From: an uncultured Bacteriovoracaceae bacterium
GTDB lineage: Bacteria > Bdellovibrionota > Bacteriovoracia > Bacteriovoracales > Bacteriovoracaceae
Length of the DNA: 64,000 bases
Direction: 5' to 3'
Assembly (NCBI GenBank): GCA_938017795.1
Contig: CALIJZ010000005.1
Span: forward strand, 1 to 64,000
Shown here: positions 31,513-49,645 of the stretch, piece after piece
Layout of the letters: each line of letters begins with the position of its first letter
Numbering within the stretch: position 1 is the first letter of the stretch
Made by a program: the position numbers and the translations under genes
The notes under the pieces: generated by a model
The model's input: the letters and a program-made list of their open reading frames with translations, nothing else
Told to the model about the DNA's origin: nothing
Databases searched by the model: none

Positions 31513-34500
31513 TCAATAAACTATAATTTTAACAATTCTATTTCTATTTTCTCGCATTTCATCTGTTGTATCTACTGGAAGATCTTCTTCTCCATAAGCT
31601 TCTCGTTTCTTAATTTTCACACCTTTAAGCCTATGAACAAGTCTATCTTCAACACTATCTAATCTACGTTGAGAGAGATTTTTATTATAATCCTTATTAT
31701 TTCTTGTATCAGCATAAGACTTTAAAATAATTCGATTACTTCCTTTTTGATACTCTCTAATTGCTCGACCGATAATTTTTAAGTCACCATCATCTAGATC
31801 AAATTTATCTGTATCGAAATAAACAATAAAACTCTTAGGATCTACTTCCCTACACTGCTCTGGAATCATTTGATCAAGCTCTACATAAATTTCTGTTCTT
31901 CTATTTAAAGATCGATCATCATCAGTTCGCTCAGGTACAAGAGTCTCTTTCTCACCAGCTCCTCTTCGTACAAACTTCTTCTGATCAAGCTCCGTCCTCT
32001 TAAGTAGAGCATTAGTAACCTTATGGGCCCTATCCCATGAAAGATCTTTATTATAAGAAGTCGAGCCAACTGTCGAAGTATGACCTGTAATAACTACTTT
32101 TGAGATCTTGTCTTGATGTTGATCTATGAGAGAAGAAAGCTCATCAATAGTGTTATAGAAATTATCTGATTCATTTACTTGATCATGTTCAAACCAAATT
32201 GTTTTTAAATTACTCTTTGGAAATACATAGTACTTTTCACAAGGATCAGCGAAAGATGAAAGACTTCTCTTTTGAGGTTTATGACAAGACTTACCATCTT
32301 TTTTCGCTTCAGACCTTGAATCAATAGCTAGTTCATATTCTCTTCCAATTCCATTCCATCGTGATTGAAGCTCTGTAACAAAGTTAGACATTCTCATTCC
32401 AACCATTTTCTTATCAGCATATTCAGATTTATAAGTTATTTGAACACCTGATCTCTTCTTTTTTAGCATTCTTAAAAGTTCATCTATATAATCAGCTGTT
32501 ACTTTTGTTAACTTATCAGAACAATCCTCAAAGTTAATATCTTTTAAGATAACTTCAAGAGTTTGATATTTTCCAAGACCAAAGTTATATTCAATAACTT
32601 TTGCTCGTGTTAATCTTTTCACTCGTGGATTTTCTGAAGTTACATAATAACCAAAAGGTGCTGACTCTTCATCGAGTTTCAGAGCAAAGTTTGTACCTCT
32701 TATAGCATTTGGTATCAGCGGACATGCGATATGAAATCGCCCGTGGTAATCAGAAGTAACTTTTAATCCATTTAATGTATAGATATTAGCTCCTGGAACT
32801 CCTCGCTCTCCAGCATTTGGGTAACCATCAAGATTGATATCAAAGAAGACTTTTCCAATAATATCTGGGCAATCAAATACATGATCAGGAATAATCTCAA
32901 TAGCAGCATTAGCTTGCGAGGCAATTGGGTTTTTCCCATCATCTGCACCGACCAAGTTTACTGAAGTACCTATTGCTGCAGAAGGAGTAATCCTCGTAGC
33001 AAAAGTAATGATAACTTTGGTTTGTGGCAGAATTGGATTTAATGTCCAAGTTAGATCTAAACCACTAACACTAGGCTCTAGTGCAGCTCCTTGAACTAAA
33101 GAAGAGTTAGGAATATAGCTAAATCCAAGTGGTAAACTATCTACAACATTTACTACTGGTGTTAGAATAGTTCCATTATTTGCTATTTCAATAGTCCATA
33201 TAACAGCTTCACCAACAGCGGCTTGAGTTCTATTTACTTTTTTGATCAAGCTAAGATCGCTAAAGAGTGGGAAATCAACATGAGCTGGATCATCTGCATC
33301 TCCATCACCATCTGTATCATTATTAGTTGGATCAGTTGGATCATCTGAAATATCAGTTACATCTCCATCAGTTGTTCCATCTTCAATAATATCACCCTCA
33401 GTTATAACTGAGTTGTCATTAGTAAGAGTTGTACTATTTGGATCCGGGAATACGTGTATTTTAAATTTTACTTCTATTTCATCATCTACACCAATACTAT
33501 CTCCAGAAGTTAAAACTAAGAAATGTGGATCTGAATCTCCATTAAAGTTTGTATTTACAGTTAACGTATTCGCCGTTGGAATAGGATTATCACTAAAAAA
33601 AAAGTTCGATGAAGTTAATGGTACAACCGTATATTGTCCTGGAGTTGTAGGAGTTGTTGCACTAAAAGTTCCAAAACCTGCAGTCAAATCATCTGTCATT
33701 TGGAAATCATATAATGGTACGTTCCCAGTATTTCTAGCTGTAATTGTAAACTCTACTTCAAAGATTCCGTTTCCAATATGTGTTGGTCCCGCACTAACTT
33801 GCTTAGTTGTTCCAACTTCTCCACCTACTGGGTAATCAACTGGAGTTGGATCATCTTCATCTGTCCCTGGATTATCAGCCGGATCATCTGATAAATCTTG
33901 TGCATCACCGTCAGTCGTTCCATTTTCTGAATTATCACCTTCAGCAATAGCTTGGTTTTCGTTTGTAAGACTCGGATCATTTTTATCCGGATAAATTGTT
34001 ACAGAAATTGGAATTCTAATTTTATCTCCAACTCCGAATGAATCTCCTGAAGTTAAAGTAATCATATTATTATTTGGTGCTGAACCGGTGAAAGCAGTAT
34101 TAACAGTTAGTGAATTACCAACTACTGGTGCATCGGTTACCCAAAATAGATCACTTTGAGCTAAAGGATTAATCGTATAAGTCCCTAATGAGTTTGGAAC
34201 TGTATTTACGTAAGTTCCAAAACCAGTCGTCATAGTATCAGTGATTTGGAAATCATAGAGTGGAATGTTTCCAGTATTTTCTACCTCGATAGTAAAGACT
34301 GTACTGAATGTTCCATCACCATTATCCATTACTGGTCCAACTGATTTAGTAGTTGAGATTGAAGAATTAATTGGTGGTGGAGCTGGTGTAGGATCATCTT
34401 CATCTGTACCTGGATTATCGGCTGGATCATCTGAGTCATCACTTGCATCACCATCAGTGTCACCATCTTCTGTATGATCACCTTGCGCGATTGCTTGATT

Positions 34501-37500
34501 TTCCCAAGACGTTTGATTATTCCAATCTGGTCTATAAGTTACTTCAATAGGAATATTAATCTTATCACCAACACCAAAACTATCTCCAGACGTTAAGCTG
34601 ATCATTTCAGTGTTACCACCTGAACCTGTAAAGCCTGTATCAATAGTTAAAGTATTTCCTGTCGGAGCATTATCAGTTGTAAAGACTAGATCACTTTGAA
34701 CTAATGGCCTAATAGTATACTGACCAATATTATTTAAAGTTGTCTGATAACTTCCAAAACCAGTTGCTATATCATCTGTTATTTGGAAATCATAAAGTGG
34801 AATATTACCAATATTTTCAACTTCAATATCAAAAGTAACTGTATAAGTTCCGTCACCATTATCAGCAACTGTACTTGCACTCTTTGTCGTTTTCACTTCT
34901 GAATCAAGAGTAATTGGAACTTCAGTTGGATCATCTTCATCAGCACCTGGGTTATCTACAGGATCATCTGAGAGATCCTCAGCATCACCATCAGTTGTTC
35001 CATCTTCAAAAGTATCCCCCTGAGCGGTTGCTTGATTTTCTCTAGTTAAGCTTGAAGTAAGATTTGGATAAAAAGTCATCACAAGATTGATACTAACTTT
35101 ATCTCCAACACTTAATGAATCACCACTTGTTAATGTTAATAAGTTTTGATCTGTTGATCCGTTATAAGCTGTATTAATTGTTAATGTATTTCCAGTTGGA
35201 GCCACATCTGTTACAAAACTAAGATCAGCTGCAGTTAGAGGAGTAACACTATATTCACCAGGAGCAGCTGGAGCTCCTGCAACGTATGTTCCAAAACCAG
35301 CTGTTAAATCATCAACAATTTGATTATCAAACAATGTTACGTTTCCACTATTTTCAGTTTCTAATAAGAAAGTTACTGTCCATGTTCCATCTCCATTATC
35401 AATTGAACTTACCACCGATTTTTCAATATCAATCTCAGGTGTAATAGGCGTATCAACCGGAGTTGGATCATCTTCATCATTACCAGGATTATCTGCTGGA
35501 TCATCTGATAGATCATCTACGTCACCATCAGTTGTTCCATCTTCAACTTCATCACCTTCAACTATTGCTTGGTTTTCATAAGTTGGTGCAGTTGCAGGAT
35601 TTAAATCCGGTATCCATGTAATTGTAATATTGATATCAACTGTATCGCCTACTCCTAAACTATCTCCACTAGTAAGTGTTAATAATGTATTGGCAGCAGG
35701 TGTACCGTTAAATGTTGTATCTAATGTCAGCGTATTAGTAGCTGGCGTTGCATTTGGAATAAATGCAAGATCAGCTGCAACTAGTGGAGTAATTGTATAT
35801 TCTCCTACATTTGCTGGCGTTCCTGTTACATATGTTCCAAAGGCCGTTGTAATAGTATCTGTAATTTGAGTATCAAATAGTGGAACATTTCCAGTATTTG
35901 TAGATGAAATGGTATAAGTTGCAGTGAATGTTCCATCACCATTATCCGTAACCGGACTGACAGATTTTACTAAACCAACATCTGGAGACGTTGGAAGGAA
36001 AATTGGTGTAGGATCATCTTCATCTGTTCCTGGTGCATCTGTTGGATCATCTGATAAGTCCGTAGCGTCACCATCAGTTGTTCCGTCTTCATCCTCATCA
36101 CCTTCAGCTAAAGCTTGGTTTTCATAACTAGGCCCAGCAACACTTTGATCAGGATAAAATCTTACGATGAATTGAATAGTTACTTCATCATTAACGCCTA
36201 AACTATCTCCAGAACTTAGTACTAATAAATCAGTATTCGTATTACCATTAAAACTTGTATCAAGGGTTAAAGTATTTCCAGTTGGATTAGCATCGTTACT
36301 AAAGAACATGCTTCCAGTTGTCATAGGTACAACTGTAAACTCACCTGGAGCACTTGGAGTTCCAGCAACATAAGTTCCAAGACCTGCAGCTACATTATCT
36401 GAAATTTGCACATCATATAATGTTACACTTCCAGTATTTTTTGCAACTAATGTAAAAGTTGTATTAAAAGTTCCATCACCAACTGGTACTGTCCATGAAG
36501 CAGTTTTTTGTAAATCTATTTCACTAACAATAGGAACTGTAATTGGTGTAGGGTCATCTTCATCTCCACCTGGATTATCCGCTGGATCATCAGAGAGATC
36601 ATCAGCATCACCTTCAGTGGTCCCATTTTCAGAACTATCACCTTCAATTTCCGCTTGGTTTTCATAAGTTAAACCAGACTTAGGTGTAAAAGTAATCACA
36701 ATCGGAATTTCAATAATATCTCCAACCCCTAGAGAATCTCCTGGAGTTAAAGTTAATAGAGTTGTATTACTAGTGCTACCTGTATAACTTGAATCTATAG
36801 TTAAACTATCTCCAGTTACCGGTGCATCAGTTGTAAAGATGAGACTTCCTGCATTTAAAGGAGTAATGGTATATTCACCAGCTCCACTAGGTGTACTTGC
36901 AGTATATGTTCCAAAACCTGCTGATATATCATCAGTGATTTGAACATCAAATAAAGTAGTATCACCAGTGTTCTCAGCTTTAAGCGTATAAGTTACTGAA
37001 TAAGTTCCATCGTTATTATCTGTAACAACTGAAGCGGATTTTTCTAAATCAACTTCTGGGTTAATAGAAATATTAAATACAGTTGGATCATTATTATCAC
37101 TCGGTCCATCATCTTCTGGATCTGGATCAACTCCATCATGAGAATCATCTGTTGCATCCCCATCTGGATTACCATCAGAAGTTTCATCACCGCTAACTGT
37201 TGCAGTATTTTGATAATTCGTCACCGTAGTATCAGGATAGAAGATCACAGTAAATTCGACCTCTACAGTTTCACCAACCAGCATAAACCCACCAGCAGAA
37301 ATATCAAAGATTCGTTTATCACTTGATCCGTTATAACTTGCATTAGAAGTTAATACATTTGTAGAGTTTGTTGTAATAATAGGAGCTGCTAATAATCCAT
37401 ACTCTCCAGCTGAATCTATATTCGAATTTGTAGATTCAAAAGTTCCAAACCTTGCTGCAAGATCATCTTCAAGGTTCACATCATGAAGAGCGATATTACC

Positions 37501-40500
37501 TGTGTTTTCAACAATAAATTTATAAGTTGCACTCCAAGTTCCATTACCATTATTAGTAACATTACTTACTTCTTTTGCTACACCTATTTCAGGATCTTTA
37601 ACTATTGGTATTGGAGTTGGATCACTATTATTTCCTGGTCCATCATCTTCTGGATCTGGATCTCCTCCATCGTGAGATTCATCTACAGCGTCTCCGGTAG
37701 TTGTCCCATCTTCAGTTGAATCACCTTTGATGATTGCTTGATTTTCATAAGTAATTGTAGCGTTATTAAAATCTGGAACAAATTTTATTCCAAAAGTTAT
37801 AGTAGCGCTCCCAGCTACTGCAAGAGTATCTCCACTAGTTAAAGTCAGCATATTTATGTCACTATCACCGTTATAAGCTGAATTTAAAGTTAAATTTGAA
37901 CCAGCAGAAATTGTCGTAATTGCTGGGGCCGTAGCTATTTGATATTCCCCTACCGTCATTGTTCCAGAATTAAAACTACCAAAAACTGTTGATAGATCAT
38001 CTTCAATTTGAACATCATATAATGGAACGTTTCCTGAGTTTTCAATATTTAATGTAAAGTTAGCTGTAAATGTTCCATCTCCATTATCTGTAATTGGAGT
38101 TGCCACTGATTTACCGATACCTACTTCAGGTTGAACTGGTATTTCAGCTACAGTTGGATCATCCTCATCTGTTCCACCATTATCTGCTGGATCATCTGAT
38201 AAATCTTCATATTGAGTTCCCGCTCCTCCAGTTGTTCCATCTTCTTCATCTTCACCTGTTGATTGTGCCTGATTTAAAAAGGTGGTCTTACCTGGGGTTG
38301 GAATGAAATTAACTGTAAAAATAACTTGAATTTCATCAAGTGCTCCAAGTCTAGAAAATTGAGTTGGAGATAATAATAATAAATTAGTATCCGTATTACC
38401 ATTATAGTTTGGATTTGGCGCAACTAAAGAATCACCTGCAATTGCATTATCAGCAGCGATTGTTGCAGTTACTGCAGAAACATTGTATTGACCGGCTCCC
38501 AAAGCTCCACTAGGAGTAAGAGTTCCAAACTCTGTTGCGAGATCATCAGTAATCATATGGTCATATAAGCTTGATTGCCCAATATTAGTAGAAGTTAAAG
38601 TATAAGTTATACTAAAGGTACCATCTGGATTAGAAGTAATAACACTTCCTGCTTTTTCTAAAGAAACATCAGGATACATAGTGAATGAAATCTCTGTTTC
38701 ATCATCATCCATTGGATCACCATCACCATCTTCATCCACTCCATAACCATCTTCAGTACTTGAATCAGGATCGAGCATATTTGAATTTGAAATTTCTGCA
38801 AAGTTTTGGAATGTTCCACCAGTGGTAGCAATAGCCGTAATATCAATCGAGACAACGTTTGACCCAGGTGTTGGACTTACACTTCCAATATCCCATATTC
38901 CAGTGGAAGCATCGTAATTACCAACACCAGCACTTGTTACATATGTTAAACCAATTGGAAGATTATCTGTAACTTGTACACCAGTGGCGGCATCTGGTCC
39001 TTGGTTAGTAACTGTTAATCTATATATAACTGTATCTCCAACAACTGCTGGAAATTTTGTAATTTGTTTATCTATTTCTAAATCTGCCAAACCAACTTTC
39101 GCTTGAACTGGGTTTGCACAAATTGTAATTGCAAGGTCGTCAGAGCCAAGACAAAATTCATTTGTATAATTATCTAAACCTTCAAAGTTCACTACTTCTT
39201 CAACTATATCAATATAATATGGTCCACCAAGTCCAGGAATAGTAGAAGACCTTGTAATTCTAATAGCTGTTACATCAGATGCAATTTGTGGACATGGGAG
39301 TGGATCTCCAATATTGGCACACCAATTCGTACTCCCTGTAGGATCATTACTCGGATCATCTGGATCATTTGAAATTGCTGTTTGTGGATCTGCTGAATAT
39401 TCAAATGTCTCACCATTTGCTCCAGAAACAGAAACAAAATTTATAACACCACTATAACTAGAAGCTGGAGCCACAACGGTCGATGTATCTGGCAAGATAT
39501 CAATCATTGTAGCACCATTAATAGGATTATTTGCAAGGTTTGTGTAAGAAAGCCTCCAAGTAATATTACCTGGTTTTTCAATGATTTGTGGAATGACAGA
39601 TTTATTAACCGCAAAAAGTGCTGGATTTAAAACTTTAACAGTCCATTCATCTGACCTTAATGCTAAAGGAGAACCATCATCTGGAGAACTTATAACAACA
39701 TTATTAATTGCATCAGTATTATTGGGAGTCGAGTTAACAACATTTACAGAATAAGTAATTGGAGTTTGTACTTGATTAATAACTGCAGCAGGAAAAACCC
39801 ACTTCAAAGTTGTTGTTCCATCTAGGTTATAAGTTACAGATGAAGGTGTTATGTTTGCACTTCCTGAAATATAAGTAAACCACTCAGGAAGAGTGTCTTC
39901 TATTTCGGTGTAAGTTGTAGGGTTAGCTGGAGTTGCAGGGAAAGTTGCTGACCATGCTAATTCAAAGTCTAGGTCTTCTCCTGCAAGTTCACTTGTTATA
40001 TTATTAACTTCAGATTTATTGACTCTCACTGTAACGGCTGTAAAAGTAGCTCTGTCACCAAGAGTCCCGTTAGGAATATTTTCATTATATGTACTTAGTC
40101 TCTCATCTGGATCAAATTCATCAGCCGAACAACTCCCATAATCAGCAAAGATTGTTCCAAAAGCTGGTTGAGGTAATTTATATTCATGAAAGACATGTAG
40201 GTCAACTCGGGGACTTGTTGTAGTTCCAGCTCTGGCTGCTGGTAAGTCTTGAGTTACTCTAACTTTTGTAACTCCAGCAACTCCTCCTGGAACGAAAGCT
40301 GGATTCGTATGCCATCCGCCTGGCGATGAGGCATCATCACAACTTGTTCCAGGTCCACTTGATCCGTTACCGTATTCAATAGTTCCTAAAGTTATTGGAG
40401 TATTCATTACTCCAGCACTTACTACTTCTGCGTAATTTCCACTTGCTCCTTGAGAGAGTAAATGTTTCGAGTTATCCCAAGTTGCACATACTCTGGCATT

Positions 40501-41877
40501 ATGTAGAGTTAAAGTTGGATCAAGAGCTGTGTTGGTTATCCTTGTAAAAGATTTCCATTTATTCCCCGGTGAAATAAGACCATTACCGTCTCTAGATGCT
40601 GAACTCCCAGGTAACAACGGGCTTGTAGTCCAAGTATTTTGCCTATAATACATCTGACAACTACCTCCACCAACATTTAGAGTTACATTTCTTGTATTGT
40701 TTGCAAGATTTGGATCAACATTAGGAGCACCGGAATCAGTTGTTCCAGACATCTCATATGTATTACTCGTTAGTAAACTCCCTCCTGCTGCTACAATATC
40801 TGATGTCGGAACCCAAACTCTCATAAGCATTGATACAAGGTGAATTTCATCTGAAGGTAGAGCTGAACCACTTGAATTTTGAATAGGACGGTGAAGCGGA
40901 GTTAAATCTGAACCAGTAATAACAATATTTGCAACGCTACCAGGTCCAGAATCAGAACAAGTTAAAAATGTTCCTGAATTTGCAACGGATCGATTGGGAA
41001 TACTTGAACTTCCTCCGGGACCTCCTGGCCCACCATTTACAGTATTAATATAAGCATAAGGATTGTTTAAATACTCAAATCCACTATTAGATAATCGATT
41101 GGGAATACACGCAGAAGGTGGAGATCCATTTCCCCAACCTTGCCATAATCTAGCGTTAGGCGAGACATTGGCAAGGTTATCGGTAATTGTTAAATCACTC
41201 GTAATAACTTCTTGGCCCTTCCCTCCATCAACCATTTTTACAACCATAGGATACACAAGAACAACCCCTGGTTCACTAGCGGGACCTAACCTTCTATAAA
41301 CTCTATAGGAAGCTTTTTGTTTATCAATATCAAGCATTGGTGCAGCCGAAACTGTAAAGTTAGCAGATCCATATGTTTGAACAGGCCATCCGTCTGATGA
41401 AATCTGACTTGCAGTATATCCGACAGTATTTCCTTGGTCTTCAGTATAATGAACTTGAGCTGGCAAACAAAATAAGTTAATCGTTCCATTGGCCAAATTA
41501 CCAACATTACAAACAGCAGTTTCTCCTGTTGTTACATCACCTGTCACACTTGATAAAGGAGTAACTCCTGAGGTTCTACAATAGGGAGGAAGACTAAACT
41601 CAGTACCTGGCAAAGTTGTAACTTCAATTACAACATTTGTTTCGGCTGCATTATTAACAGCAACTTCAAAACAAAAATTTAAAACATCGTTTGTTCTAAC
41701 AATGCCATTTGCATTTCCATCATCATTACCTGGGTTATTATCACCACTAAATGGTCCCGTCCCATCTTCAACAGTTGCCACAACCGAAAGATCTGCAAAA
41801 GAATTAAACGAAAAAAGCATCATCCCTAAAAGAAAAAATACATTTTTAAAAATTTGTTTCATTTTTGTATAAATCAT
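31513..41877 (-). CDS. giant DUF11 / OmpA-domain surface protein (3454 aa)
   Basis: Signal peptide (first about 28 residues, ends SFNSFA). Residues about 30-930: unique beta-rich domains with Gly/Ser/Pro loops. About 935-1065: classic DUF11 domain (VVGDTVIYRLTVTNQGPDAA). About 1066-2867: ten repeats of about 180 residues, each with a DNGDGT turn, a YDxQIxDD segment, LTLTSGDSLGVGD and an acidic tail like DLSDDPADNPGTDEDDP. Then another DUF11 (about 2870-2990), an SdrD-B-like domain IIGKVFFDINLDGYPNAGER (about 3010) and two OmpA-type peptidoglycan-binding domains (about 3225-3335 and 3345-3454). AAGGAAG ribosome-binding site. Probably a long surface fibre anchored in the cell wall. Downstream (10-base gap) of the barrel gene. 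Confidence 0.85.
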   Translation of the reverse strand: MIYTKMKQIFKNVFFLLGMMLFSFNSFADLSVVATVEDGTGPFSGDNNPGNDDGNANGIVRTNDVLNFCFEVAVNNAAETNVVIEVTTLPGTEFSLPPYCRTSGVTPLSSVTGDVTTGETAVCNVGNLANGTINLFCLPAQVHYTEDQGNTVGYTASQISSDGWPVQTYGSANFTVSAAPMLDIDKQKASYRVYRRLGPASEPGVVLVYPMVVKMVDGGKGQEVITSDLTITDNLANVSPNARLWQGWGNGSPPSACIPNRLSNSGFEYLNNPYAYINTVNGGPGGPGGSSSIPNRSVANSGTFLTCSDSGPGSVANIVITGSDLTPLHRPIQNSSGSALPSDEIHLVSMLMRVWVPTSDIVAAGGSLLTSNTYEMSGTTDSGAPNVDPNLANNTRNVTLNVGGGSCQMYYRQNTWTTSPLLPGSSASRDGNGLISPGNKWKSFTRITNTALDPTLTLHNARVCATWDNSKHLLSQGASGNYAEVVSAGVMNTPITLGTIEYGNGSSGPGTSCDDASSPGGWHTNPAFVPGGVAGVTKVRVTQDLPAARAGTTTSPRVDLHVFHEYKLPQPAFGTIFADYGSCSADEFDPDERLSTYNENIPNGTLGDRATFTAVTVRVNKSEVNNITSELAGEDLDFELAWSATFPATPANPTTYTEIEDTLPEWFTYISGSANITPSSVTYNLDGTTTLKWVFPAAVINQVQTPITYSVNVVNSTPNNTDAINNVVISSPDDGSPLALRSDEWTVKVLNPALFAVNKSVIPQIIEKPGNITWRLSYTNLANNPINGATMIDILPDTSTVVAPASSYSGVINFVSVSGANGETFEYSADPQTAISNDPDDPSNDPTGSTNWCANIGDPLPCPQIASDVTAIRITRSSTIPGLGGPYYIDIVEEVVNFEGLDNYTNEFCLGSDDLAITICANPVQAKVGLADLEIDKQITKFPAVVGDTVIYRLTVTNQGPDAATGVQVTDNLPIGLTYVTSAGVGNYDASTGIWDIGSVSPTPGSNVVSIDITAIATTGGTFQNFAEISNSNMLDPDSSTEDGYGVDEDGDGDPMDDDETEISFTMYPDVSLEKAGSVITSNPDGTFSITYTLTSTNIGQSSLYDHMITDDLATEFGTLTPSGALGAGQYNVSAVTATIAADNAIAGDSLVAPNPNYNGNTDTNLLLLSPTQFSRLGALDEIQVIFTVNFIPTPGKTTFLNQAQSTGEDEEDGTTGGAGTQYEDLSDDPADNGGTDEDDPTVAEIPVQPEVGIGKSVATPITDNGDGTFTANFTLNIENSGNVPLYDVQIEDDLSTVFGSFNSGTMTVGEYQIATAPAITTISAGSNLTLNSAYNGDSDINMLTLTSGDTLAVAGSATITFGIKFVPDFNNATITYENQAIIKGDSTEDGTTTGDAVDESHDGGDPDPEDDGPGNNSDPTPIPIVKDPEIGVAKEVSNVTNNGNGTWSATYKFIVENTGNIALHDVNLEDDLAARFGTFESTNSNIDSAGEYGLLAAPIITTNSTNVLTSNASYNGSSDKRIFDISAGGFMLVGETVEVEFTVIFYPDTTVTNYQNTATVSGDETSDGNPDGDATDDSHDGVDPDPEDDGPSDNNDPTVFNISINPEVDLEKSASVVTDNNDGTYSVTYTLKAENTGDTTLFDVQITDDISAGFGTYTASTPSGAGEYTITPLNAGSLIFTTDAPVTGDSLTIDSSYTGSTSNTTLLTLTPGDSLGVGDIIEIPIVITFTPKSGLTYENQAEIEGDSSENGTTEGDADDLSDDPADNPGGDEDDPTPITVPIVSEIDLQKTASWTVPVGDGTFNTTFTLVAKNTGSVTLYDVQISDNVAAGLGTYVAGTPSAPGEFTVVPMTTGSMFFSNDANPTGNTLTLDTSFNGNTNTDLLVLSSGDSLGVNDEVTIQFIVRFYPDQSVAGPSYENQALAEGDEDEDGTTDGDATDLSDDPTDAPGTDEDDPTPIFLPTSPDVGLVKSVSPVTDNGDGTFTATYTISSTNTGNVPLFDTQITDTITTAFGTYVTGTPANVGEYTITPLVAADLAFIPNATPATNTLTLDTTFNGTPAANTLLTLTSGDSLGVGDTVDINITITWIPDLNPATAPTYENQAIVEGDEVEDGTTDGDVDDLSDDPADNPGNDEDDPTPVDTPITPEIDIEKSVVSSIDNGDGTWTVTFLLETENSGNVTLFDNQIVDDLTAGFGTYVAGAPAAPGEYSVTPLTAADLSFVTDVAPTGNTLTINTAYNGSTDQNLLTLTSGDSLSVGDKVSINLVMTFYPNLTSSLTRENQATAQGDTFEDGTTDGDAEDLSDDPVDNPGADEDDPTEVPITLDSEVKTTKSASTVADNGDGTYTVTFDIEVENIGNIPLYDFQITDDIATGFGSYQTTLNNIGQYTIRPLVQSDLVFTTDNAPTGNTLTIDTGFTGSGGNTEMISLTSGDSFGVGDKINIPIEVTYRPDWNNQTSWENQAIAQGDHTEDGDTDGDASDDSDDPADNPGTDEDDPTPAPPPINSSISTTKSVGPVMDNGDGTFSTVFTIEVENTGNIPLYDFQITDTMTTGFGTYVNTVPNSLGTYTINPLAQSDLFWVTDAPVVGNSLTVNTAFTGSAPNNNMITLTSGDSFGVGDKIRIPISVTIYPDKNDPSLTNENQAIAEGDNSENGTTDGDAQDLSDDPADNPGTDEDDPTPVDYPVGGEVGTTKQVSAGPTHIGNGIFEVEFTITARNTGNVPLYDFQMTDDLTAGFGTFSATTPTTPGQYTVVPLTSSNFFFSDNPIPTANTLTVNTNFNGDSDPHFLVLTSGDSIGVDDEIEVKFKIHVFPDPNSTTLTNDNSVITEGDIIEDGTTDGDVTDISDDPTDPTNNDTDGDGDADDPAHVDFPLFSDLSLIKKVNRTQAAVGEAVIWTIEIANNGTILTPVVNVVDSLPLGFSYIPNSSLVQGAALEPSVSGLDLTWTLNPILPQTKVIITFATRITPSAAIGTSVNLVGADDGKNPIASQANAAIEIIPDHVFDCPDIIGKVFFDINLDGYPNAGERGVPGANIYTLNGLKVTSDYHGRFHIACPLIPNAIRGTNFALKLDEESAPFGYYVTSENPRVKRLTRAKVIEYNFGLGKYQTLEVILKDINFEDCSDKLTKVTADYIDELLRMLKKKRSGVQITYKSEYADKKMVGMRMSNFVTELQSRWNGIGREYELAIDSRSEAKKDGKSCHKPQKRSLSSFADPCEKYYVFPKSNLKTIWFEHDQVNESDNFYNTIDELSSLIDQHQDKISKVVITGHTSTVGSTSYNKDLSWDRAHKVTNALLKRTELDQKKFVRRGAGEKETLVPERTDDDRSLNRRTEIYVELDQMIPEQCREVDPKSFIVYFDTDKFDLDDGDLKIIGRAIREYQKGSNRIILKSYADTRNNKDYNKNLSQRRLDSVEDRLVHRLKGVKIKKREAYGEEDLPVDTTDEMRENRNRIVKIIVY
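33275..38680 (-). repeat. ten in-frame ~540-bp coding repeats
   Basis: Ten tandem units of about 540 bases (about 180 residues) inside the giant gene. The acidic linker is the most conserved part (DDPADNPGTDEDDPTP). The second and third units from the N-terminal side share a variant linker with ESHDG/DSHDG and PDPEDDGP, showing sub-family structure from past duplications. The acidic, Asp-rich linkers may bind calcium (inference from composition). Confidence 0.85.
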
Positions 41878-41887
41878 TGTTTCTTCC

Positions 41888-44800
41888 TTAAAACTTACTC
41901 AATACGTTTATAAAATAACCTTTGTTATCTATGGATAAGTTAGTGAGGTCACTACTGAACTCGGACCAACTATATCCTCCACCAAAACGTACGTTCTTAT
42001 TCACATGATAAAATAATCCTGCGAGTGCTCCGTAAGAGTTATCTTTACTTTCAATTTGATTTTTCCAACGTCCTTCAAGAGTTAAGTCCCATTTATGAAC
42101 TATATGTAGATCTCCTCTTAAAATCGCAATTTGAGATGTTGCTCCTAACCAGCCTGCACCAGTTAGAAAATCTTGTTCTCCAAATTTATAACCGTACTTT
42201 CCACCAAGGGTAAAGTATTTACTAATATCTAAATTTGCATCAACTGAAAAAACATGTGACTTTTGTTTGAAAAAAGTAGAGCCACCTACAGTCACTTGAT
42301 TAATTGTTGGGATATCATAGAAATATGTATATTTACCTAAAAGATTAAAGCGATCACCTTTTTTTGGTCTAAATGCAATACCAAGAGATCCTTCAACAAA
42401 CTCACCATCATTTATATTAGCTTGATTATTTTCACTAAAGCTAATATTAACTCTAGCCAATAGTGTAAACTGCTCACTTGCAACATATTTGGAATTGAAT
42501 TTTCCAACATATGTCTTTCTTTTCTGATTAGATATTAAATTATCATCAGTTCTATACTCACCGGCTATAGAAATATGTTTTCTTTCAGTTCCATATCCTA
42601 TATTTGCTCCAGCAGCAGTTCTTTTTAAATTATTTACTTTTCCTTTTTCAAAATTTCCACCTAGGTTGAAGTTTTTCCAAGGCGTTAGATCTACTCCATA
42701 AGTTCTGGTATAACCGTCTTGTCCTTGTCCATGATAAAGTCTGTCTTCCCCATAGACCGAGGCAGAACTTCCAAACCTCATTTTAGTACCAACTGACATT
42801 GTTCCACTAGTGTTATTACTAGCTCCTATTGAACCTATTCCTCCAAGTTGAGAAAAGATTCCATCATAACCTAATCCCGTATTATTTCTGTTTTCACTTA
42901 AATCGTAACCTAAGTAAAATTGAGAATGATGATTATAATCATAAGTTGCCTTTGCATTAGCATATAATTCTTCATTAACGTCTCTACTAACTTCTCCACC
43001 TAAAGATACTTTCTTAGAGATACTATACTTAGCTCCCAAACCATATCGAGTTGAATCAACAGTATTACCTTTAAAGTCTATTGTTTTTTGACCAAATAGA
43101 TATGCTTTGTTTACATGGCCTTTTCCAAACTTTAAGCCAGCTCTTAAACCAACATTTGATATTTCATCAATCACATTACTTTTTTCTGCTCCATACCCTA
43201 TAGCTCCAAAAATTTTTTGAGCTTCATAGTTAAGTTGGCCTAAATATCTATTAGATTCAATATTAGCAGAAGTTGATTTATCATATTCTATTTTACCGCT
43301 TACTCCAGATGCTTGGTCGCCTAAAAGAAGTGCAGCTCCTATTCGATTTAAATCTTGTTGAGTTGATTGCCCCAGTGCTGAATATCCAGCTTTTTGATCT
43401 CTATAATATGTATTCAACTTTCCAGGGAGCTTTTGTGTAATATCTTTGAAGTCTAAGCTTCCCTCTAAACTTATTGCTCTAGGGTCAGAGCTTGAATTAG
43501 CTGCTGATTGATTAGTTGATCCATAACCACCATCGTAAGATCTTTGGGTTAAAGTACTCTCACCATTTGTTACTGAGTATCCACCTTTAAGATAACTTTG
43601 ATCAGTTATTCTTGCTACTAGGTCAAAACCATAAAGTTCATTGTCAACTCCATTTCTAATTCTTTGCTTTAAAGCAGTTACTCCAACTTTGAAGTGATCA
43701 CCTATCCATTGGTTAGCATTACCTCCAACGAGAAAATTATTCTTAAGGCTTGTTGCAGTTGGGGTCACTTCATAGTCTACAACGAGGAAAATCGGATCTC
43801 CTGTTTGAGTTGTTCCTGAAGTTACTACATCTCCATCACCAGAAGTAGAGCTTAATGATTCATTTAATATGATTCGACCTTGAAGATAATTAATATCATA
43901 GTCTTGACCATAGATAATAGATCTTGCACTTTTTATAATTCCAGAATGTCTATCTCTGACTTCAATGCGAATTTTTTCAGAGCCAATAGTTAAGTCTTGA
44001 TAACTTAAAAAATAGACTGATCCTCCAGTTCCTCGTAATTCATCTCTTGCTGGGAAAGTTGTTGGATCTGCTAAAAAACCTACTACCTTTGTTTTTGATT
44101 CTCCATACTTTGTTTGAGAGTTTGATTCAAGATTTAGCTTTGCCCCATAAAGTGACCTATTAATTTGTGCTAGATCTGTGCCTAGTACTTTTGTTTCATA
44201 ATTCCCCCAGACAACATAAGACTTATCTTTTTGAACTCTTAAATATATCTTTCCTTGAGTTGGAGCAGTTTCTTCTGTAGTACTCTCATCTCCATAAACA
44301 GGGTAATACTTATCAGCATCTAACCTTCTTAAGAGTTGATCCGTTCTTTTTTGATCTAAGTTTCTAAAAAGCGATTCCGCATCTCCCTCTCCACTATTAC
44401 CCATCGCTGTAATTAAATATTTCCCTTGAATTTTACCTTTTAAGTAAAACCCAACTTGACCGTGTAAGTATTTATTCTCAAACTCTTCTGGTCTTGCTTC
44501 TTGAACTCTTAAAGGTCCTGTGAATTGGTTTTGTCCATAAGTTGCATCTAGCATTGCGAAGAAGAAGATCTTGTCTTTTTTAATATTTATATTTCGAATA
44601 ATTTCTCTTCTGGTGTTATTCTTATCCGTCACGTTTATTGTTAAATCTTTTATACCGTGCGGGATGATTATATCCGCCACATACCTACCATTAACATCTA
44701 CTGGAGCAAGTACATCTTCTACTTGGGAAACAGTATCTGTTTTAGCGTTCTCTCCATATACAGTAACGGTTCCTCCTCTTAAGGGAATATTTGCTTTCTC

Positions 44801-45331
44801 AAGACGTGAAATACCAAACCCAGAATTAAATTCCTTAATTGAGTTTGATTGTTTAGAAATTTTTACTTTCTTTGTTTGATCATAAACATTATCTTTATCA
44901 TAAACTTTAAGAATGATATCAAATGCTTCCAGATTATAATCTGTAAATTCTTTTTCAGTGATTGTAATTATGGTATTTATTTTTTTTACAAATAAAACAT
45001 CATCAGATCCTGGTTTATAAAAAACTAATTCTTTTTTGGAAATAAAATCTGGATAATTTAAATAGGGAGCTATAACAACTGAACCATCATCTTTTCTTGT
45101 CACTCCTAATCCTAATTTCCTATCCACCTTTGAAGCTTCATACTTCATTCGAACAAGTAAATCTTCCTTTGAGTTTTCATCTTTTTTGACTCTTATTTCA
45201 AAGGCGCTACTTTTTTCTACAACCTCTTCATTTTTCTCTATCAGGAAAGGGCTTTCTTTTATGTCTTGGGTTATAGCAAGCGATGAGAACAACAAAATAC
45301 AAAAAGCTATTAAATTAAATTGCAGATACAT
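41888..45331 (-). CDS. large outer-membrane beta-barrel protein, partner of giant protein
   Basis: 1147 residues. Signal peptide (about 1-21), a periplasmic/N-terminal beta region to about residue 260, a middle segment with IRIEVRDRHSGIIKSARSII then YGQDYDINYLQGRIILNESL (about 455-500), and about 600 residues of amphipathic strands with aromatic girdles (LGGKYGYKFGEQDFLTG, RFGGGYSWSEFSSDLTNL) ending KF. The last residue F and alternation fit an outer-membrane barrel. It is transcribed first, 10 bases before the giant gene, with AGGAGATAGAG upstream of ATG. Transport or surface display of the giant protein is inferred from context; no exact family named. Confidence 0.75.
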   Translation of the reverse strand: MYLQFNLIAFCILLFSSLAITQDIKESPFLIEKNEEVVEKSSAFEIRVKKDENSKEDLLVRMKYEASKVDRKLGLGVTRKDDGSVVIAPYLNYPDFISKKELVFYKPGSDDVLFVKKINTIITITEKEFTDYNLEAFDIILKVYDKDNVYDQTKKVKISKQSNSIKEFNSGFGISRLEKANIPLRGGTVTVYGENAKTDTVSQVEDVLAPVDVNGRYVADIIIPHGIKDLTINVTDKNNTRREIIRNINIKKDKIFFFAMLDATYGQNQFTGPLRVQEARPEEFENKYLHGQVGFYLKGKIQGKYLITAMGNSGEGDAESLFRNLDQKRTDQLLRRLDADKYYPVYGDESTTEETAPTQGKIYLRVQKDKSYVVWGNYETKVLGTDLAQINRSLYGAKLNLESNSQTKYGESKTKVVGFLADPTTFPARDELRGTGGSVYFLSYQDLTIGSEKIRIEVRDRHSGIIKSARSIIYGQDYDINYLQGRIILNESLSSTSGDGDVVTSGTTQTGDPIFLVVDYEVTPTATSLKNNFLVGGNANQWIGDHFKVGVTALKQRIRNGVDNELYGFDLVARITDQSYLKGGYSVTNGESTLTQRSYDGGYGSTNQSAANSSSDPRAISLEGSLDFKDITQKLPGKLNTYYRDQKAGYSALGQSTQQDLNRIGAALLLGDQASGVSGKIEYDKSTSANIESNRYLGQLNYEAQKIFGAIGYGAEKSNVIDEISNVGLRAGLKFGKGHVNKAYLFGQKTIDFKGNTVDSTRYGLGAKYSISKKVSLGGEVSRDVNEELYANAKATYDYNHHSQFYLGYDLSENRNNTGLGYDGIFSQLGGIGSIGASNNTSGTMSVGTKMRFGSSASVYGEDRLYHGQGQDGYTRTYGVDLTPWKNFNLGGNFEKGKVNNLKRTAAGANIGYGTERKHISIAGEYRTDDNLISNQKRKTYVGKFNSKYVASEQFTLLARVNISFSENNQANINDGEFVEGSLGIAFRPKKGDRFNLLGKYTYFYDIPTINQVTVGGSTFFKQKSHVFSVDANLDISKYFTLGGKYGYKFGEQDFLTGAGWLGATSQIAILRGDLHIVHKWDLTLEGRWKNQIESKDNSYGALAGLFYHVNKNVRFGGGYSWSEFSSDLTNLSIDNKGYFINVLSKF

Positions 45332-46663: not shown

Positions 46664-49645
46664 TTATTCAGGCCCATCATCTGTAAAAGACCAACCTTCA
46701 TTTAAAAGGTTTGTTCTCGCTGTTACAGCGGCAGGTTGATATGCTGCTGGAACATCTCCCAAATTTAGTCCTGCAGTTGGAATTAAATCATTTATATTAA
46801 TTAAAAAATTGCTGTAATTCTGATTAGAAATGTTTGTAGCTATAAACATTCGATACATGTTTCCAACACTAGTCACATCCCAATTGTCAGTTTCAGGGTC
46901 TGCAACAGATGCACCAAAAAACATATGTCTCATTGTCGTAACATTTGATACATCCCAACTGCTCACATCTGGGGTTGCAAGAATTGCATATGCAAACATT
47001 CCTTCCATGTCAGAGACCATCCCTACATCCCACTCACTTACATCTGGGTTTGCTATATCCGCCTGACTAAACATAGCTTTCATGTTAGTTACTTTTGAAA
47101 CATCCCAGTCAGCAACATCAGGATCTGCAGCATCAGTTGCATAAAACATATAATCCATATCTATAACATTGCTAGTATCCCACAACTCTGTAACAGGATT
47201 TGCAACATAAGTTCCACTAAACATTCCTCCCATATCTGTAACACTAGAAACATCCCAGCTACTGACATTAGGATTTGCCATATCTGCAGAGAAGAACATG
47301 TGGTGCATATTTTCAACTTTTGAAACGTCCCACCCAAATGTATTCGGATTTGCAACATCAGACTGACTAAACATACTCTGCATTTCAGTGACATTGCCTG
47401 TATCCCATCCACTAGTCACAGGATTTGCCGATGTAGTATTTGCGAACATATAACTCATATTGGTAACATTTGCAGTATTCCAACTACTGGTGTTAGGGTT
47501 TGCATCTGTGCCAAAAAACATAGAACCCATATTAGTAACATTAGAAGTATCCCAATTAGTTGTAATTGGTTCTACATTAATTGATCCCCTGAACATGGAT
47601 TGCATCGTAGTAACTTCGCTTGTATCTCCTCCTTCAACAGTTGTTAAATTAAGACATTCCTCAAAACTTCCAAAGAAGCTTTTCCAATCTACATCTCCCA
47701 ATTCAGGAATTGATAAAATCTTCAATCTCTCAGGCGTATTCCAAAGCCTTATTGATTCCATTTTTCCTGTAATCGTAATTGTGTAAACACCTGGAGAAGC
47801 ATAAGTATGTATTCTATCAGGATCAGTTCTTGATGTAACATAACCTAAAGGACTACTATCTCCCCAATCTACATTGAAATCATATTGATTCCCATTAGCT
47901 GGTAGAGGTAAGGTTATCGTTTCACTAGCACTTGTTATATTCCATGTTGAGACAAATGGAGTTCCATAAACTGTAATTTTAAAACCTTCAGTATCATTAA
48001 GGGCCCCATCTGTAAGCACTAATACGATATCTGATTCACCTTTTTCATTAAGTGCAGGAATGGCGGAAAAACTGCAACTTGTTCCACTTCCTCCAATTGA
48101 AATATCAGCTGAAGGAATGAGAGTTGTATTTGAGTTTGATTGAACATTCACATCTGAACATGTTACAGGTGAATCGATATCTGAAATTGTAAAACTTACA
48201 ATTTGGAGAGATTTTCTAGATGTTACAAAATCGCTAATACTTTGGATCTTTGGTGGATCATTGACTGCATTAATAATTAAATCAAAGCTCGTTGAAGCTG
48301 AACTTAATCCATCAGAGATACTAAAAGTTAAATTACTAGCTGTCCCACTCGCATCATCTACAAGTGTAATCGCTGCACTACAATCTGGAGCCGTTCCTGA
48401 GAAGCTAATATTAGAGATTAAACTTCCAAAAGTACTAAGATCTGTTGTCACTGATCCACATGCTAGAGTTGAATCAATATCATTGATATCAAAATCTACT
48501 GATAAGTCGATATCTTCATTTGTTGTTTTATTTCCAAGAACATCTAGAGCTATTGTGGGTGGATCATTAACTGCATTAATAGATAAATTGACACTAGCAG
48601 TATTAGACTGAGATCCTGCAGTTGTTACTTGGTATGTGAAGTTTTCACCTAATCCGTTAAAATTTGCAACACCTTGAACTATAGCTTTACATACACCCAA
48701 AATATCACATGTACAGCTCGAAAGAGTTATATTGGTAGTCTTGGTAATGATACTACAACCTGTAGCAAGATCACCATCTGTATCTGAATAAACTAAAGTA
48801 ATCGTTTCAGGATTATCCTCTAAGAAAGAAACTGTTCCCATTGGACCAGCAACTGGCAAGGCACCAAAATCAAGTACAACTTCTAAAGTATCATTATCAA
48901 ATATATCTTCTTGATCAAAAGAAATATTTGAAATTTTATTTACTAAAGAAGTTCCAACTAAACCCGTACCCACTTTAGCAGTTATTTCAAGAGTATTAAC
49001 CTCTGCATTCTCAACTCTTCCAAGATCCCACGTCCCAGTTGAGAAGTTGTATCCACCTTTCGTAGAAGAATAGGAGAGATAAGTAAGTCCTGCTGGAAGT
49101 AAGTTCACTATTTCTAGATTTGTTAAATCTCCAGGCCCAAAATTTTCACTAGTAATAGTAAAAACAACAGTATCTCCTTCTAAAGGAGAAGAATTATTAA
49201 CTGAAAGGACTGTTTTCAAGTCATTACCACAAATTCTAATTGGATTATTTTGAATTATATTTGACTGAGTAAAAGTGATATTTTTGATTTGAATTGCCGG
49301 GTTAAGACCATTTATCATATTACCTGGGAATTCAACTGGACCACAATTGTACTGACCTTCAATACATGGACAAGTTTCCAATGATGGAATCATGTCACTA
49401 GAGCTAATCTCTAAAGTTGTATTGCTGGGAGCACAATAGCCAGTTAGGCTTACTACTTTACGTGCTGATGGAACGCAATCAGCAATATTAAGATTATTAC
49501 CAATTATTAAGGGACTTGGGTCTGAAGTATCATTAACAACTGGTCCTTCATATTCAACAATCCCTCTCATAACAATGTTAGTACTATTGTTTGGAGATAA
49601 GCAGGAAGTCATTAATAAAAAAGAAATCAAAGCCAGTTTGTGCAT
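46664..49645 (-). CDS. surface lipoprotein with DUF11, cadherin-like and DUF285 repeats
   Basis: 993 residues. Lipobox LLMTSCLSP (Cys about 15). About 145-250: a DUF11 domain (NNSSPLEGDTVVFTITSEN, NLEIVNLLPAGLTYL). About 270-560: three or so cadherin/Ig-like domains (AVNDPPTIALDVLGNKTTNE, AVNDPPKIQS). About 560-670: a PKD-like lead-in (FNVDWGDSSP, HTYASPGVYTITITGKM). About 674-934: eleven DUF285 repeats of 24-25 residues, W-D-x-S-x-V-x-x-M-x-x-MF. DUF285 occurs in surface lipoproteins of Mycoplasma and in environmental bacteria. Outer-membrane, probably adhesion. Shares DUF11 with the nearby giant protein. Confidence 0.85.
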   Translation of the reverse strand: MHKLALISFLLMTSCLSPNNSTNIVMRGIVEYEGPVVNDTSDPSPLIIGNNLNIADCVPSARKVVSLTGYCAPSNTTLEISSSDMIPSLETCPCIEGQYNCGPVEFPGNMINGLNPAIQIKNITFTQSNIIQNNPIRICGNDLKTVLSVNNSSPLEGDTVVFTITSENFGPGDLTNLEIVNLLPAGLTYLSYSSTKGGYNFSTGTWDLGRVENAEVNTLEITAKVGTGLVGTSLVNKISNISFDQEDIFDNDTLEVVLDFGALPVAGPMGTVSFLEDNPETITLVYSDTDGDLATGCSIITKTTNITLSSCTCDILGVCKAIVQGVANFNGLGENFTYQVTTAGSQSNTASVNLSINAVNDPPTIALDVLGNKTTNEDIDLSVDFDINDIDSTLACGSVTTDLSTFGSLISNISFSGTAPDCSAAITLVDDASGTASNLTFSISDGLSSASTSFDLIINAVNDPPKIQSISDFVTSRKSLQIVSFTISDIDSPVTCSDVNVQSNSNTTLIPSADISIGGSGTSCSFSAIPALNEKGESDIVLVLTDGALNDTEGFKITVYGTPFVSTWNITSASETITLPLPANGNQYDFNVDWGDSSPLGYVTSRTDPDRIHTYASPGVYTITITGKMESIRLWNTPERLKILSIPELGDVDWKSFFGSFEECLNLTTVEGGDTSEVTTMQSMFRGSINVEPITTNWDTSNVTNMGSMFFGTDANPNTSSWNTANVTNMSYMFANTTSANPVTSGWDTGNVTEMQSMFSQSDVANPNTFGWDVSKVENMHHMFFSADMANPNVSSWDVSSVTDMGGMFSGTYVANPVTELWDTSNVIDMDYMFYATDAADPDVADWDVSKVTNMKAMFSQADIANPDVSEWDVGMVSDMEGMFAYAILATPDVSSWDVSNVTTMRHMFFGASVADPETDNWDVTSVGNMYRMFIATNISNQNYSNFLININDLIPTAGLNLGDVPAAYQPAAVTARTNLLNEGWSFTDDGPE
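46843..47622 (-). repeat. eleven DUF285 24-25-residue repeats
   Basis: Tandem 72-75-base units in the 3' third of the lipoprotein gene. Each encodes W-D-(V/T)-S-x-V-x-x-M-x-x-M-F followed by a variable A-x-P-x tract (for example WDTSNVTNMGSMFFGTDANP). Confidence 0.85.

Follow-up and report, generated by a model that had tools for sequence, protein, structure and literature searches.

In this study, a pair of adjacent genes encoding a predicted giant outer-membrane barrel and a repeat-rich fibre was analysed in a genomic stretch of an uncultured Bacteriovoracaceae bacterium (the window: positions 1 to 64,000 of contig CALIJZ010000005.1, assembly GCA_938017795.1). The pair probably represents a two-partner fibrillar-adhesin system, in which a C-terminal domain (CTD) couples the fibre to a giant barrel, predicted to have about 40 strands, by which the fibre is exported or collared; the OmpA domains would tie this complex to peptidoglycan. 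The coupling of fibre and barrel is well supported; export and adhesion are what we infer.

Results

Both genes lie on the minus strand, where the barrel gene comes first and the fibre gene begins 10 bp downstream of it. An earlier note, made by a model from the letters of the window, had described two genes 10 bases apart, and both open reading frames (ORFs) were recovered in that arrangement. Structures were predicted with AlphaFold2 (AF2).

41888..45331, minus strand: barrel gene, 1147 aa (ORF list, AF2, at least 574 relatives)
31513..41877, minus strand: fibre gene, 3454 aa (ORF list, Pfam)

The closest relative of the window organism is a second genome of the genus (CALHLC010000022.1). 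Because the pair is intact in this genome at 87-88% identity, with its repeats in register and a low ratio of nonsynonymous to synonymous substitution rates (dN/dS), the two genes are no chance reading frames. The ten repeats of the window fibre correspond one-to-one to those of the sister genome, and purifying selection acts throughout the fibre (dN/dS 0.02-0.17 after the signal peptide); the SdrD_B-like half of the CTD is among the slowest-evolving parts (dN/dS 0.02).

A genome scan built on a six-member alignment returned at least 574 relatives of the barrel. Eighty loci were kept, mainly from Pseudomonadota, together with desulfobacterial, Elusimicrobiota and other records. The element common to the partner fibres is the CTD of about 190 residues (E 1e-28 to 1e-91), not the repeats; it usually ends 7-40 residues before the fibre C-terminus, and its identity to the window CTD is mostly 34-43% between families, compared with about 33% for the barrel. 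The linkage of the two genes was counted in the 74 loci with more than 1.5 kb of upstream DNA. A CTD gene was found no more than 3 kb upstream of the barrel gene in 71 of them, and most often the two genes overlap by 4 bp. Two of the three exceptions belong to the window genus, in which the gene order is reversed, with the partner downstream, or the contig stops before the partner; the third is a metagenome-assembled genome (MAG, L020) with CTDs elsewhere in its genome. With strong matches defined as E<1e-30 for the CTD and E<1e-200 for the barrel, strong CTDs and strong barrels were present in the same 8 of 150 genomes of Hyphomicrobiales (the order of Chelativorans) and in the same 10 of 150 genomes of Burkholderiales (the order of Polaromonas). 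The chance of such co-occurrence is about 2e-13 and about 9e-16, respectively, assuming that the genomes are independent, which genomes are not. The pair, which might have proved not to be conserved together, is thus kept together across phyla, and an obligatory association of the CTD with a dedicated, very large outer-membrane barrel is strongly supported. One pair member (L097, IMGVR_UViG_2684623061_000001) is found on a 65.8-kb contig classed as viral, a classification that may be wrong.

The fibre was divided into the following parts.

41794..41877, minus strand: signal peptide, about aa 1-28 (sequence)
39958..41793, minus strand: N-terminal region, aa 29-640, without a Pfam family; candidate distal or adhesive head (Pfam of aa 1-650)
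38758..39957, minus strand: N-terminal DUF11 (CLIPPER) domains, aa 641-1040 (Pfam, triad alignment)
33295..38685, minus strand: ten DUF11/DUF7507-type repeats of about 180 aa with acidic linkers, aa 1065-2861 (unit alignment; Lys11, Asp48 and Asn147 columns invariant)
32908..33282, minus strand: last DUF11 domain, aa 2866-2990 (AF2, triad alignment)
32317..32886, minus strand: CTD, aa 2998-3187, an SdrD_B-like module and an OmpA-like domain (AF2, profile searches)
31879..32217, minus strand: OmpA domain 1, aa 3221-3333, ligand Asp replaced (GHTS) (Pfam, residue check)
31516..31860, minus strand: OmpA domain 2, aa 3340-3454, ligand Asp and Arg kept (Pfam, residue check)

Pfam searches matched the fibre to DUF11 (E 8e-54), DUF7507 (2e-48) and, in two stretches, OmpA (4e-22). 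The ten repeat units of 178-182 residues share a mean pairwise identity of 45%; they were found by motif-based alignment, and a BLAST self-comparison returned nothing. The units are strongly acidic (isoelectric point 4.05) and contain no cysteine. The names CLIPPER and CLIPPER_2 have recently been given to DUF11 and DUF7507, stalk domains with isopeptide bonds that occur in fibrillar adhesins (PMC12617251). Lys, Asp and Asn columns that fit an isopeptide triad are invariant in 10/10 repeats of the window fibre, which supports an isopeptide-type (CLIPPER) stalk signature at the sequence level, the bonds themselves being predicted. Partner fibres elsewhere match other isopeptide families in Pfam, including SpaA_2, SpaA_4, DUF7933 and DUF7507.

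At the C-terminal end of the fibre, the match to SdrD_B is genuine although weak (PF17210, 25 bits, slightly below the cut-off, on a homologous module). Between this module and the OmpA domains, AF2 predicts a beta-alpha-beta-alpha-beta order that resembles OmpA, and 9IFR, a crystal structure from an Acinetobacter adhesin with an OmpA-like C-terminal anchor, was among the best structural matches of the model of the fibre C-terminus. All of the parts that the earlier note had listed were confirmed, namely DUF11 domains, ten 180-residue repeats, an SdrD-B-like module and tandem OmpA domains. OmpA domain 1 is without the peptidoglycan-binding Asp; most OmpA domains of the family keep both Asp and Arg.

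The barrel protein has the following parts.

45266..45331, minus strand: signal peptide, about aa 1-22 (sequence; helix 2-17 in AF2)
44582..45205, minus strand: Ig-like N-terminal domains, aa 43-250, putatively periplasmic (all-beta in AF2; OmpA joined N-terminally in Gammaproteobacteria and Betaproteobacteria)
44033..44572, minus strand: first group of barrel-type strands, aa 254-433, 8 by DSSP (AF2, alignments)
43865..43975, minus strand: plug-like small beta insertion, aa 453-489, holding DRHSG...YGQDYDINYLQGRI (AF2, alignment)
41894..43798, minus strand: second group of barrel-type strands, aa 512-1146, 34 by DSSP (AF2, alignment)

The AF2 model, built from 49 sequences, has a predicted local distance difference test score (pLDDT) of 77 and a predicted template modelling score (pTM) of 0.72; about 42 barrel-type strands are predicted between residues 254 and 1146. 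The strand-rich region that the earlier note had seen in this exported protein is therefore present, and its length in the model is about 890 residues, not 600. The DRHSG/YGQDYDINYLQGR segment of that note falls in the small beta insertion at residues 453-489. The first strand group and the insertion form the most conserved part of the barrel and are common to the single-chain paralogues described below; the protein ends in a conserved terminal aromatic motif, G-x-F-I-N-x-x-x-K-F. Foldseek placed mostly very large outer-membrane barrels (SlpA/SDBC, SprA, LptD and FimD) at the top of the structural neighbours, all with low template modelling scores (TM-scores). No credible match to the barrel was found in Pfam, NCBIfam or PDB sequences, and hence none to a known unrelated transporter family. 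A strand-amphipathicity test did not tell barrel strands apart from Ig strands and was not used as evidence.

Fibre and barrel also occur fused. In Hellea, a single chain contains the DUF11 array, the CTD and the barrel in this order, and a paralogue in the window genome (G000:C35:1552-7023, L006) is a single chain of 1823 aa in the order DUF11-SdrD_B-Ig-barrel-OmpA. Smaller exported genes flank this paralogue; single-chain proteins like it are frequent in Burkholderiales, where the matches are weaker. The location of the OmpA domain varies: the fibre C-terminus in the window and Croceibacterium, the barrel N-terminus (one to three copies) in Polaromonas and Microbulbifer, the interior of the CTD in Elusimicrobia, and a separate gene in Vibrio. 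Because its position shifts freely between the parts, OmpA most likely works together with them in one complex, at its periplasmic face. This mobility also suggests that the barrel N-terminus and the fibre C-terminus both face the periplasm, in which case the stalk would lead outward from the CTD. The earlier note had proposed a C-terminal peptidoglycan anchor with the repeats leading outward, and this part of its proposal gains support from the domain order and from the OmpA-anchored CLIPPER adhesin (PMC12617251). An Elusimicrobia MAG (L042:7535-9613) carries two OmpA domains inserted within the second half of the CTD.

Discussion

The proposed mechanism may be outlined as follows. Both proteins would enter the periplasm by Sec, and the CTD would dock on the barrel via the Ig-like periplasmic domains and/or the plug-like insert. 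The stalk would then leave through the wide lumen, its N-terminus forming the far end, and the CTD and OmpA domains would stay in the periplasm and stop the release of the fibre. The outcome would be a surface fibre that is anchored to the cell wall and has its own barrel as a collar, with a probable use in attachment to prey, surfaces or other cells. If the isopeptide bonds already form in the periplasm, unfolding of the domains for export would be impossible and a wide pore would be needed, which would explain the size of the barrel. A more far-reaching version, which we hold only tentatively, is that the pair constitutes an undescribed and broadly distributed system for secretion and anchoring. 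Its barrel, with about 40 strands, may be larger than any other known outer-membrane barrel made of one chain; it would recognise the C-terminal SdrD_B/OmpA-like module and bring folded, isopeptide-locked stalks of up to several thousand residues to the surface, where they would stay pinned to peptidoglycan.

Several points weigh against the two-partner adhesin interpretation. The earlier note had called the genes a surface adhesin/secretion pair, of which the conserved pairing stands; the passage of the fibre through the barrel, its exposure at the surface and its adhesion are putative. Barrel closure and the strand number of about 42 are unverified estimates of the model (pTM 0.72, Foldseek TM-score about 0.2). 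No Pfam family was found in residues 1-650 of the fibre at E<=0.01, and no known adhesive domain was recognised there. The comparison of the second half of the CTD with OmpA by hhalign (probability 46%, P 2e-4) is suggestive only; the AF2 topology of this half is more informative than the profile comparison. In many Alphaproteobacteria the set includes no canonical OmpA domain, and peptidoglycan anchoring is not universal unless the OmpA-like half of the CTD provides it. Finally, CTD fibres outnumber barrels in a few genomes. At two loci (G059:C1:1518470-1527632 and G195:C2:854650-860899), two CTD-bearing giant genes stand beside one barrel, which suggests that one barrel may serve several fibres.

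The main rival of export is that the barrel merely collars the fibre, as an assembly or anchoring ring that surrounds or docks the CTD, while the fibre itself takes a different path across the membrane. The linkage of CTD, OmpA and barrel demands a complex, not translocation, and the OmpA domain at the barrel N-terminus in many genomes fits a static anchor. However, neither the annotated regions examined nor the window genus showed any other secretion gene as a regular neighbour of the pair, and the barrel is far bigger than an anchor requires; we regard a collar without export as unlikely. Somewhat less likely still is an envelope scaffold, in which the fibre would be a structural or S-layer-like tie of outer membrane, barrel and peptidoglycan rather than an adhesin. 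The top fold neighbour of the barrel, the Deinococcus SlpA/SDBC envelope barrel, would fit this explanation, as would the two OmpA domains of the window fibre, the up to three on barrels, and the lack of a recognised adhesive domain in the window fibre. However, the TM-score to SlpA is only about 0.2, and the system is accessory and patchy, being present in 18/300 genomes of the two orders and absent from one member of the genus. The array length also varies across the family, from a few to 64 DUF11 matches, unlike that of a fixed scaffold. That the barrel is an ordinary nutrient transporter (a TonB-dependent receptor) standing by chance beside a surface protein, as the name 'TonB-dependent receptor' given to several relatives by the NCBI Prokaryotic Genome Annotation Pipeline (PGAP) would have it, is very improbable and already contradicted by the absence of TonB_dep_Rec or plug matches (none at E<=0.1 in nine barrel members in Pfam, and none in six in NCBIfam), the perfect co-occurrence of barrel and CTD, and the fusions to the fibre.

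Among described proteins, the fibre most resembles the CLIPPER fibrillar adhesin of Acinetobacter silvestris (B9T28_05395, PDB 9IFR), with which it shares a signal peptide, a tandem DUF11/DUF7507 stalk, the Lys/Asp/Asn signature and a C-terminal OmpA-like anchor (PMC12617251). It combines three features of a CLIPPER-stalk adhesin: a signal peptide with a tandem stalk, the triad, and an OmpA surface anchor. The passages of that report that were consulted describe no cognate barrel or CTD, and neither an outer membrane nor a barrel is mentioned in its main text, whereas the fibre studied here has a dedicated giant barrel.

Known secretion systems were also compared with the pair, which in its proposed working resembles two-partner secretion or an usher, although the defining features of these families that were looked for were not found. 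Two-partner secretion (type Vb, TpsA/TpsB) likewise places a large exoprotein beside its own outer-membrane barrel, but its recognition module is N-terminal, not C-terminal as here, and the TpsB barrel has 16 strands, compared with the approximately 42 predicted here; no POTRA or two-partner secretion domains were found in Pfam scans of both proteins or of nine barrel relatives. The chaperone-usher protein FimD is similar in its very large barrel with a plug-like beta insert and its folded Ig-like cargo (Foldseek E 2e-6). It differs in that no chaperone gene was seen here and the cargo is one giant chain instead of polymerised subunits; no usher match was found in Pfam, and the fold similarity is weak. 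SprA of the type IX secretion system (T9SS), also a very large single-chain barrel, was among the top Foldseek matches (TM-score about 0.15-0.17), with no Pfam or PDB-sequence match; the cargo here has a DUF11/CTD module, not the T9SS C-terminal signal. Intimin and invasin (type Ve) combine an Ig-repeat stalk, a barrel and periplasmic peptidoglycan binding, a combination comparable to the single-chain paralogue of the window genome. The fused form here runs stalk-CTD-barrel rather than LysM-barrel-stalk, the window pair consists of two separate chains, and no IAT_beta match of inverse autotransporters was found in Pfam. Type 11 secretion (Slam, DUF560) gave no Pfam match in the pair or in nine barrel relatives.

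No description of the pair was found in the literature on DUF11 and OmpA, barrel, TonB-dependent receptor or SdrD_B proteins. The barrel partner and the CTD appear to be undescribed, and the fibre itself appears to belong with the OmpA-anchored CLIPPER fibrillar adhesins. Nearly half of predicted fibrillar adhesins are without a recognised anchor (PMC8286594), and the literature examined gave no account of the way in which CLIPPER adhesins of Gram-negative bacteria cross the outer membrane and are attached to it. The pair offers a testable answer, namely a portable C-terminal module with a cognate giant barrel, and points to an undescribed way of passing giant fibres through the outer membrane and holding them there. 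It is spread over Pseudomonadota, desulfobacterial lineages, Elusimicrobiota and Bdellovibrionota, concealed by product names that include 'TonB-dependent receptor', 'OmpA family protein' and 'DUF11 domain-containing protein'. Should the barrel prove to be the export channel, folded giant proteins would have one more way across the outer membrane, and the use of isopeptide-locked stalks by Gram-negative bacteria would be accounted for.

With regard to origin, the window clade is nested in an alphaproteobacterial group in the tree, beside a Rickettsiales MAG (Shimodaira-Hasegawa-like approximate likelihood ratio test, SH-aLRT, 99). Among 241 Bdellovibrionota genomes, strong CTDs were confined to the window genus, apart from a single divergent giant of a different family. 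Two genomes of the genus have the pair in a variable stretch that runs from lon to a major facilitator superfamily (MFS) gene, and a third has it elsewhere; it is absent from a fourth, which is 98% complete. The simplest reading is that Bdellovibrionota acquired the pair laterally. Another Bdellovibrionota family has an open frame (G442:C45:1-30637, L108/L109) of at least 8,919 aa with 64 DUF11 matches, its 5' end cut by the contig edge; it lies directly upstream of a barrel-family member, and its CTD is internal and followed by further DUF11-like domains.

The conserved genes clpP-clpX-lon border the variable stretch on one side. The surface and exported genes between lon and the MFS transporter differ by genome (window positions 27118-52524 compared with L007/L008, L110 and L111). 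One of them, at window positions 46664-49645, encodes a 993-aa protein with DUF11, tandem-95-like stretches and PARCEL/DUF285 repeats of the Mycoplasma/Listeria type; it is likely another surface protein, and the sister genome is without it at this place.

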